NCBI GenBank assembly: GCA_016178305.1
Contig: JACOTM010000035.1
Location: forward strand, 1-64,000
Direction: 5' to 3'
Source: Flavobacteriia bacterium
GTDB taxonomy: Bacteria > Bacteroidota > Bacteroidia > Flavobacteriales_D > Crocinitomicaceae
DNA: 64,000 nt
The notes beneath the pieces are model-generated. The model saw nothing but the letters and a program-made list of their open reading frames with translations, was not told the origin of the DNA and searched no databases. The position numbers and the translations under genes are program-made. Of the stretch, positions 5,761 through 20,725 are shown piece after piece. Each line of letters opens with the position of its first letter. The stretch's first letter is position 1.

Positions 5761-5898
5761 TATATCATTGATTTGAACACTAAGATACATTTTTTATTTT
5801 ATCTACTAAATATCATTTCCATATTTAATAAACACTTTAATATTTTCTTTACCTTCGTTCAACATTCGTTCTTTATTTCAGTCAATCAATTTAGATAA

Positions 5899-6030
5899 AA
5901 ACAATGTGAATTTTAGGGGAATCGTGTTAAATTCACGAACTGTCGCGCAACTGTATGTAACACTAAGTTATAAGTCAGATTACCTATTTACATTGTATAT
6001 CAATACTTTCGCCGTAAGAGTATTTGAACC
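5899..6030 (+). ncRNA. cobalamin (B12) riboswitch
   Basis: The core matches the cobalamin aptamer in order. GGGAATCGTG and TTCACGAACTG form the early stem, CGCGCAACTGT is the conserved CAACTG box, and AAGTCAGATTACCT is the B12 box at about 5971-5985. Outer arms ACAATGTGAA (5901) and TTTACATTGT (5987) can close the structure. A hairpin AATACT...AGTATT follows at about 6003-6025 and could be the expression platform or kissing-loop partner. A promoter-like TACCTTCG lies at 5850-5857. The next gene on this strand is the thioesterase at 6131, which is not a usual B12 target. Confidence 0.88.
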
Positions 6031-6130: not shown

Positions 6131-6523
6131 ATGAATTTACAAGAAAAAATTGCTCAATCAGAAACTAAAATTTTTAAAGCTGTATTTCCAAATACAACAA
6201 ATCATTATGATACATTATTTGGAGGAACAGCAATGCAATTAATGGATGAAGTTGCATTCATTGCTGCAACTCGCTTTAGTCGTCAACGTATGGTTACTGT
6301 GAGTAGTGACCGAATCGATTTTAAAAAACCTATTCCTGGAGGCACAATTATTGAATTAATCGGAAAAGTTAGTTATATTGGCAACACAAGTTTAAAGGTA
6401 AAAGTCGATATATTTATTGAGCAAATGTATGCAACCGATAGAGAAAAAGCTGTTTCAGGTGAATTTACATTTGTTGCAATAGACGAAAATAAACAACCTG
6501 TTAAAATTCTAAATGAAAATTAA
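6131..6523 (+). CDS. hot-dog acyl-CoA thioesterase
   Basis: This 130-residue single hot-dog domain belongs to the YciA/acyl-CoA hydrolase group that cleaves acyl-CoA thioesters in the cytoplasm. The characteristic N-terminal NHYDTLFGGTAMQLMDEVA contains the conserved Asn, the GG turn and the catalytic-type Asp. VSSDRIDFKKPIPGG is the second family signature. Its length is typical and there is no signal peptide. It is a single gene, about 100 bases downstream of a cobalamin riboswitch, and ends about 37 bases before the convergent helicase gene. The substrate cannot be read from sequence. Confidence 0.92.
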   Translation: MNLQEKIAQSETKIFKAVFPNTTNHYDTLFGGTAMQLMDEVAFIAATRFSRQRMVTVSSDRIDFKKPIPGGTIIELIGKVSYIGNTSLKVKVDIFIEQMYATDREKAVSGEFTFVAIDENKQPVKILNEN

Positions 6524-20359: not shown

Positions 20360-20386
20360 AAAAAATGAATAACAAGAAACGTTATT
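20360..20386 (-). terminator. terminator-like hairpin after the polycysteine frame
   Basis: On the minus strand, AATAAC and GTTATT (+ strand 20381-20386 and 20368-20373) form a six-base stem followed two bases later by six T. The stem is AT-rich and weak. A competing hairpin AAGAAA/TTTCTT (+ strand 20389-20394 and 20374-20379) would use the loop and disrupt it, as expected for an attenuator. Confidence 0.5.
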
Positions 20387-20392
20387 GATTTC

Positions 20393-20524
20393 TTAAGACA
20401 TGCGACAGCAACAGCAAAGCATAGACGTCTTATTCAAATTATAATTTAATAAAGTCGAATAGGATAATTCTTCCAAATAAATGGATATTGAAGAATTTGC
20501 GTTAAATTGTGAATTTCTTTTCAT
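20393..20524 (-). CDS. putative polycysteine leader peptide of metX
   Basis: This 43-codon frame (ATG at 20524) lies between the SAM-I riboswitch and metX. It ends NKTSMLCCCCRMS then TAA, with four consecutive Cys codons (TGC TGT TGC TGT). The Cys codons fall in the loop of a hairpin whose arms TAAGAC and GTCTTA (+ strand 20427-20432 and 20394-20399) are extended by ATGC/GCAT. A terminator-like hairpin follows. By analogy with known attenuators, ribosome stalling when charged tRNA-Cys is scarce would alter downstream folding. Polycysteine leaders are known to me from Actinobacteria; here the function is inferred. Confidence 0.65.
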   Translation of the reverse strand: MKRNSQFNANSSISIYLEELSYSTLLNYNLNKTSMLCCCCRMS

Positions 20525-20544
20525 AATACAATTAATTTATATTC

Positions 20545-20660
20545 TCCCGATTATTCGGGATCAGGAATTGGCACCGGTTTTCCAATTCCGACTTCACATC
20601 GGAACTTTAAGTTGGTTGCCAGAGGATCATCGAGCCTGTCTCTCACCTCTTCTGTATAAA
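20545..20660 (-). ncRNA. SAM-I (S-box) riboswitch
   Basis: Read on the minus strand, the order is AGAAGAGGTGAGAGACAGGCTCGATGATCC (here in parts: AGAGGTGAG, then GGCTCGATGATCC), GGCAACC (20614-20620), a P3-like arm with TTCCGATGTGAAGTCGGAA, and GGTGCCAATTCCTGA (20561-20575). These are the conserved S-box elements in correct order and spacing. A hairpin CCCGAATAATCGGG follows at 20546-20559. It precedes metX and hom, classical S-box targets. Confidence 0.92.
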
Positions 20661-20692
20661 CATGTTATCTACCGTTGTAGAAATGCTGAGTA

Positions 20693-20725
20693 CAAAGATT
20701 TGGAAATAATTTTCGATATTCCAAA
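20693..20725 (-). promoter_or_regulatory. promoter of the metX leader
   Basis: On the minus strand a -33 TTTG (20722-20725) and a -7 AATCTTTG (20693-20700) are separated by 21 bases, a close match to TTTG/TAnnTTTG. A start near 20687 would place the riboswitch about 30 bases into the transcript. Confidence 0.65.

Follow-up and report, generated by a model that had tools for sequence, protein, structure and literature searches.

Riboswitches and codon-sensing leader peptides are usually regarded as separate regulators. Among the latter, the polycysteine leader frames of Actinobacteria (PMC1262725) come closest to the locus considered here; the first-pass annotation of this DNA had mentioned them, and they are indeed on record. 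Like the leaders of this study, they are short frames that carry a run of Cys codons near the stop codon and precede sulfur genes, and a conserved terminator is often missing; in contrast, the accessible part of that report describes neither a riboswitch nor an enrichment of Met, the genes concerned are the cys operon and cbs, and the phylum is another one. Judged from sequence, the likeness would be a resemblance, and common descent is not implied. Mycobacterial polycysteine leaders are reportedly leaderless, to go by the title of a 2020 paper by Canestrari, whereas the frame described below is preceded by an aptamer of ~130 nt. A leader of cysS in the Rhodobacterales, uORFC-8-2 (PMC8632094), is likewise a short Cys-codon frame that is taken to sense the charging of Cys-tRNA, but it has two Cys codons and an intrinsic terminator, it serves cysS, and no riboswitch is described in the available part of the paper.

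On the side of the riboswitches, SAM-I riboswitches with a ribosome-binding site on the 3′ side of the P1 helix have been described (PMC2258182, in the sections accessible to us). In these, the 3′ side of P1 adjoins a start codon, as it does here; the regulated start is described as the gene's own, whereas in our leaders it is mostly that of a leader frame. The same source presents the tandem SAM-I and AdoCbl riboswitches of Bacillus clausii metE, which also bring two inputs to the leader of one sulfur gene, but through two aptamers with separate terminators, and its available text mentions no leader frame. A translated leader under riboswitch control precedes the mycobacterial ppe2 gene (PMC11260477), and translation of this uORF is needed for the downstream gene; in contrast to our leaders, the ligand is B12, the coupling involves a stop/start overlap and reinitiation, and the accessible sections describe no sensing of amino-acid codons. 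The introduction of that paper presents the effect of uORFs associated with riboswitches as a question still to be addressed. Leader-peptide attenuation is mentioned in general terms in the available parts of transcriptome papers on Flavobacterium (PMC9723704) and Bacteroides (PMC7366714). Our literature search, which covered only a minor part of subscription papers and preprints, found no report that combines a SAM riboswitch with a Cys leader. We describe such a combination upstream of metX in the window, by which we mean the whole stretch of 64,000 nucleotides that was analysed (contig 24 of a 3.6 Mb draft genome that is 99.99% complete), and in the relatives of its source organism.

Results

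The features of the metX leader all lie on the minus strand. A SAM-I riboswitch aptamer (RF00162) occupies 20662-20534 with 67.5 bits, against a gathering score of 44.4, and covers positions 1-108 of the 108 in the Rfam covariance model; the first-pass annotation had placed it at 20660-20545, and Rfam agrees, with a slightly longer span. The 3′ side of P1 (AATATAAATT, 20543-20534) adjoins the leader start upstream, and we propose that it belongs to the region in which the leader is initiated. The 43-codon frame that follows (20524-20393; MKRNSQFNANSSISIYLEELSYSTLLNYNLNKTSMLCCCCRMS, then the stop codon) can be read directly in the sequence with the ending CCCCRMS that had been reported for it, and it is conserved in relatives. 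In its final residues, SMLCCCCRMS, the four Cys codons (TGC TGT TGC TGT, 20416-20405) have a Met codon on the 5′ side (20422-20420) and another on the 3′ side (20401-20399), Met being enriched in the tails of the relatives as well. The Cys codons do lie, as had been claimed, inside a hairpin of TAAGAC (20432-20427) and GTCTTA (20399-20394), the formation of which is predicted with a probability of 0.60 without a ribosome.

At either end of the leader, the earlier reading stood in part. The two elements of the proposed promoter are present: TTTG (20725-20722), possibly an upstream promoter element, and 21 nt further on AATCTTTG (20700-20693), possibly a -7 element; the latter, however, is one base off the consensus TAnnTTTG given in the accessible part of PMC9723704, differing at the first base. 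TAnnTTTG was found at most 90 nt upstream in 27 of the 70 leaders tested. At the 3′ end (20394-20360), AATAAC (20386-20381) can pair with GTTATT (20373-20368), and CA and six T (20365-20360) follow. This hairpin had been annotated, and it exists as a candidate terminator, but it contains one G-C pair, it is separated from the T run by a 2-nt gap, and it was not listed in our terminator scan.

The leader precedes metX (20308-19181, minus strand), a member of the homoserine O-acetyltransferase family by matches to TIGR01392 (340 bits, cut-off 500) and NF001209 (312 bits, cut-off 331). Behind it on the same strand lie a homoserine dehydrogenase (19142-17895) identified by profile search, two half-size YedE/TsuA-like membrane proteins suggestive of sulfur/thiosulfate transport (17715-16800; weak matches of 40.4 and 29.2 bits, cut-off 400), an OsmC-like protein (16740-16318), again from the profile search, and an O-acyl-homoserine sulfhydrylase-like enzyme (16317-15163; NF006003, 516 bits, cut-off 522); metX and these genes are likely to form a sulfur operon. 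Elsewhere in the window, Rfam places an AdoCbl riboswitch at 5889-6027 on the plus strand (56.5 bits), and the first frame 3′ of it (6131-6523, plus strand) is by eye acyl-CoA thioesterase-like, an unexpected partner.

RF00162 is present in 86 of 99 related genomes. Thirty loci and 60 stretches from related genomes gave 90 loci, and an exact-pattern scan of named genomes for the aptamer core, which was blind to Cys, gave 83 stretches, of which the 80 that were listed were used. Our table of 123 entries comprises the window, 36 of the 90 loci, the 80 scan loci and six leaders from a sample of the phylum; because these six were chosen with their frames already known, the set is partly non-blind. 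The other 54 of the 90 loci were set aside by gene, after their frames had been inspected: they are metH leaders (47 recognised by motif and three more with cut or late-starting MetH frames), L002, L004 and L072, which precede other sulfur-type genes, and L016, which lies at a contig end. Removal of L118 (no aptamer), L156 (truncated) and 23 duplicates over 220 nt left 98 distinct SAM leaders. A leader frame was found in 77 of them, whereas 13 have metX at the leader position, 7 stand before a dehydrogenase-like gene and 1 is frameless. The genes behind the 77 frames are metX (47), metY (21), hom (2) and genes without an assignment (7); where more than one frame started within 30 nt (3 of the 77), the frame richest in Cys was taken.

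The leaders L046, L092, L123, L153, L163 and L169 consist of a SAM-I aptamer and a frame of 12-15 codons (e.g., MKKRMCCCCYEK) before the dehydrogenase-like gene, which has no obvious sulfur role. This gene resembles one for a Glu/Leu dehydrogenase; a Pfam scan of a 70-residue piece of it gave no match. A second metX-type SAM leader of genome G011 (L040), with a short frame that lacks Cys, also precedes a dehydrogenase-like gene.

Cys and Met are concentrated in the tail of the 77 leader frames, the head of which is nearly free of both. Cys accounts for 34.0% of the last 14 residues against 0.7% elsewhere (367/1078 against 12/1753) and Met for 13.2% against 0.6% (142/1078 against 10/1753), with Fisher p values of 3e-154 and 1e-49, respectively, to which related leaders contribute as non-independent observations. 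Met occurs in the last 14 residues of 74 of the 77 leaders, and Cys or Met in 75. Conservation of the Cys run among relatives was one of the tests on which the first-pass annotation had made its leader depend, and the run is conserved: at least three consecutive Cys are encoded in frame in 55 of the 77 leaders and in 0/77 in both frame +1 and frame +2, and 200 dinucleotide shuffles yielded a mean of 0.44 and a maximum of 3. The enrichment of Met in the same tail is an addition to the first account of the leader, and it too is restricted to the reading frame (13.2% versus 0.6 and 0.7% in the other frames). When the six phylum leaders are left out, a run of at least three Cys is found in 53 of 71 leaders and Met in 69 of 71. 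The 43 distinct leaders from the Cys-blind scan alone show such a run in 33 cases and Met in the last 14 residues in all 43, at 37.4% Cys and 15.1% Met. CC is absent from 11 of the 77 frames, which have endings such as CLACR and RMRQMA, and in nine sets of close relatives, variation in the tail Cys columns was synonymous in 6 and non-synonymous in 4, which lends the Cys codons weak support. The metH SAM leaders provided an internal control: a CC-bearing frame was present in one of the 42 that were examined, in another position, and the metH ATG lies 37-162 nt from P1. We conclude that the SAM-I aptamer combined with a Cys/Met leader is a real, conserved class in a group of Fluviicola relatives, most of them uncultured.

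Of the SAM leaders inspected in the wider phylum, a number end in a hairpin and a T run, without a Cys/Met-tailed frame. Such a frame precedes metY in five of 60 stretches (G100, G145, G176, G195 and G234, of families f14 and f19) and has between 2 and 7 Cys close to its end. The leader of G172 has an ATG frame without Cys, and an overlapping frame that starts inside the aptamer ends in CC. In L205 and L207, a SAM-I aptamer is followed by a Cys/Met-rich frame (RMCMPVNI and IRMCMELCCSS) and then, by eye, a SusC-type outer-membrane receptor-like gene; a clear hairpin and T run separate the aptamer from the frame in L207, and in these two loci the leader frame may exist apart from the riboswitch. 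A SAM leader with the frame MRRAGMGCCCCCWLA before an ATP-grasp-like gene (by eye) in a G+C-rich genome (L235) may be due to chance. A polycysteine scan of the source genome itself found 65 sites of four TGY codons; among the 30 loci that were inspected, there was one short frame besides the metX leader (L264:1396-1518). It is antisense to a PLP enzyme gene and was rejected as a further leader; we take it as an example of how CCCC frames can arise by chance.

The start of the leader frame keeps a narrow distance from the aptamer, the ATG lying 9-11 nt past the P1 core in 57 of the 77 leaders. Thirteen of the 98 distinct leaders have the start of metX in the place of the leader ATG. From a leader ATG at about 10 nt from P1 and a metX start that can take its place, and by analogy with the P1-type switches cited above, SAM-bound P1 probably blocks initiation of the leader frame.

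The effect of a ribosome on the leader was modelled with a mask from -14 to +16 relative to the P site, placed at every codon, and the energy needed to open the metX start region was computed. For 46 metX leaders that have Cys in the tail, a ribosome at Cys codons gave a mean opening gain of 1.48 kcal/mol, against 0.13 for one in the head and 0.92 for one at the stop codon (p=2.8e-5 and 0.027). When the spacers were shuffled, the mean gain was 0.14 versus 1.52 for the native spacers (p=9e-6), and 17 of the 46 leaders exceeded all 12 of their own shuffles. For example, the predicted opening cost in L129 drops from 9.7 to about 2 over the greater part of the Cys tail and is back at 8 when the ribosome is at the stop codon; L056 starts at 7.9 and has values of 1, 7 and 8 for the first Cys codon, the third Cys codon and the stop codon, respectively. 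In the Fluviicola-type leaders, RNAalifold paired the Cys codons with the segment before metX, with 10 pairs in all seven leaders and G-U variants at two. A gain of at least 1.5 kcal/mol with the ribosome on Cys codons was obtained for 17 of the 46 metX leaders and for none of the 22 metY/hom leaders in the same model; because the other 29 metX leaders stay below this value too, there is no single platform, and the platforms differ. In a subset of the relatives, a sequestered metX start would thus be a better-supported platform than a terminator, according to this model.

Pairing between Cys codons and spacer was rejected as a general rule (mean z -0.30 over 68 leaders, with 8/68 below -1.65), and no common consensus structure 3′ of the frame was predicted for eight leaders of one metX group. 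Nine metY spacers contain a hairpin in which the loop, GGGCC(C), is conserved and the stem varies (L043, L048, L049, L051, L093, L120, L138, L145 and L159). In this region, 7 of 14 predicted pairs show a two-sided change in one or more of eight sequences, and the position of the ribosome had no consistent effect on the hairpin in the nine leaders.

We also asked where these bacteria obtain cysteine. The source genome has no typical CysK or CysE gene: its sole close CysK paralogue, a frame of 453 residues, best matches cystathionine beta-synthase (494 bits, cut-off 510), and the best CysE-like match is a frame of 199 residues with 115 bits (cut-off 211), beside one that presumably encodes a sialic-acid synthase. 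A cystathionine gamma-synthase/lyase-type enzyme is present. Because the typical CysE/CysK pair is missing, this genome probably draws its cysteine, like its methionine, from homocysteine, downstream of metX; with both amino acids probably coming from homocysteine, metX would be a sensible target of regulation. Nine of the eleven other members of the genus have a CysK-like frame of 294-299 residues together with a CysE-like match of 159-165 bits; of the remaining two, G011 has the CysK-like frame alone and G002 has neither. None of these matches passes the curated cut-offs, and the CysE/CysK pair is thus our interpretation.

The number of Cys codons was compared among 31 genomes of the family (33 leaders, with the best leader taken for each genome). 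Its mean is 1.9 in genomes with a CysE/CysK-like pair (n=14) versus 5.1 in those without (n=17), with p=1.3e-4, and p=0.022 at the genus level. When a metX tree of 25 genomes is used for a Brownian correction, which is the model that fits best, the link is no longer significant (p=0.14). G002 was dropped from this comparison, as it is 86% complete and its near-identical sister G004 has the pair; G034 was counted as zero Cys, yet it has a CCCC leader before a dehydrogenase-like gene. Four pair-less genomes have another CysK-family frame of 306-318 residues, and dropping or reassigning them gave p=2.4e-4. There are counterexamples: G013 combines a CysE/CysK-like pair with six Cys codons, and G051 has neither the pair nor a leader. 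A dependence of Cys-codon number on the absence of the pair is suggestive only.

Discussion

How might these leaders work? We favour a two-stage check on sulfur, to which we assign a probability of about 0.6: the SAM-I aptamer gates the start of the leader frame, and pausing on the Cys/Met tail then exposes metX. The reading starts from the architecture seen in the leaders, from its conservation and from the observed codon enrichment and spacing. With the P1 helix about 10 nt before the leader start, SAM-bound P1 would, we infer, keep ribosomes from loading on the leader frame. A ribosome that has loaded would presumably pause on the Cys/Met tail when charged Cys-tRNA or Met-tRNA is short. In the subset of leaders in which the model predicts opening of metX, the paused ribosome would separate RNA that otherwise pairs with the metX start region, and metX would be translated. 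The presumed sign of the response is such that full metX output would need low SAM as well as short sulfur amino acids. A wider formulation is tentative, and we hold it to be possible rather than probable: these leaders might be a conserved three-input RNA device in Bacteroidia, in which SAM-I licenses the leader, the Cys and Met codons report on both tRNAs, only a paused ribosome exposes metX, and the length of the Cys run follows the dependence on homocysteine.

The mechanism proposed in the first-pass annotation was classical transcription attenuation, in which stalling at the Cys codons frees an antiterminator, there an AAGAAA/TTTCTT pairing, and so prevents the T6 terminator. The T6 hairpin does lie directly past the leader stop codon, and the GGGCCC-loop hairpin of some metY leaders, given its compensatory changes, could be an antiterminator. 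In the window model, however, the candidate terminator forms with a probability of 0.94 without a ribosome and of 0.96-0.97 when the ribosome stands on the Cys codons; the value is 0.82 at Met 41, 0.52 at Ser 42 and 0.01 at the stop codon. The proposed antiterminator is not supported, because the modelled terminator gives way only once the ribosome is at the stop codon; AAGAAA pairs into the lower stem of the candidate terminator, not against it. The window thus has the sensing codons of a transcription attenuator, but the model gives it no stall-driven antiterminator. A loose test that had no shuffle control detected terminator-like hairpins in 28 of 70 leaders, and terminators are therefore not a constant part of the class; the window's hairpin is missing from the scan, and the GGGCCC-loop hairpin did not respond consistently to the ribosome. 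We consider transcription attenuation unlikely. What survives of the idea that a single leader reads both SAM and tRNA-Cys charging is the junction of SAM-I with a conserved Cys frame; the attenuator as drawn does not. The behaviour of the modelled terminator at the stop codon would rather suit a protective role of leader translation, in which the terminator, or Rho, is kept from acting in the window by a ribosome that has reached the stop codon, and a shortage of Cys lowers metX, a gate of opposite sign. This would hang on a weak terminator in one leader, and the modelled effect in relatives has the other sign, which makes such protection distinctly unlikely. For the window itself, the metX start is not sequestered in the model: its start region is open, at about 3.2 kcal/mol whatever the position of the ribosome, with a gain of 0.22 in the spacer-shuffle run. 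By this model, the second stage in the window cannot be a sequestered metX start, and it would have to work through a terminator or by some other route; if the candidate terminator is real, the response of the window would have the reverse sign of that in its relatives.

Two further explanations do without codon sensing as the primary function. Cys together with Met is typical of copper ligands, and the Cys/Met-rich peptide might itself act, for example as a metal or redox sensor, with codon reading secondary. Leaders differ widely in how Cys and Met are spaced and ordered, though, some keep one or none, and the gene context is SAM-controlled synthesis of sulfur amino acids; an active peptide is very improbable. 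As for the TGY repeat being a structural RNA element in an untranslated frame, its pairing with the metX start region in Fluviicola-type leaders is what such an element would show, but the runs are confined to the frame of an ATG that keeps a fixed distance to P1 (0/77 in the other frames), and Met, too, is enriched in that frame only. We regard this as the least probable explanation. For the class as a whole, the anatomy of the two-stage check is well supported and its mechanism moderately so.

A riboswitch and a codon-sensing leader placed in series, with natural variants that have or lack the leader, make the integration of cofactor level and tRNA charging testable in a single RNA. The class would also supply a simple rule for locating leader frames in Bacteroidota. 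If the reading is true, metX would be a shared entrance to the methionine and cysteine routes of bacteria that lack a typical CysE/CysK pair, and with this arrangement several sulfur end products may be checked by a single RNA before the gene is used.
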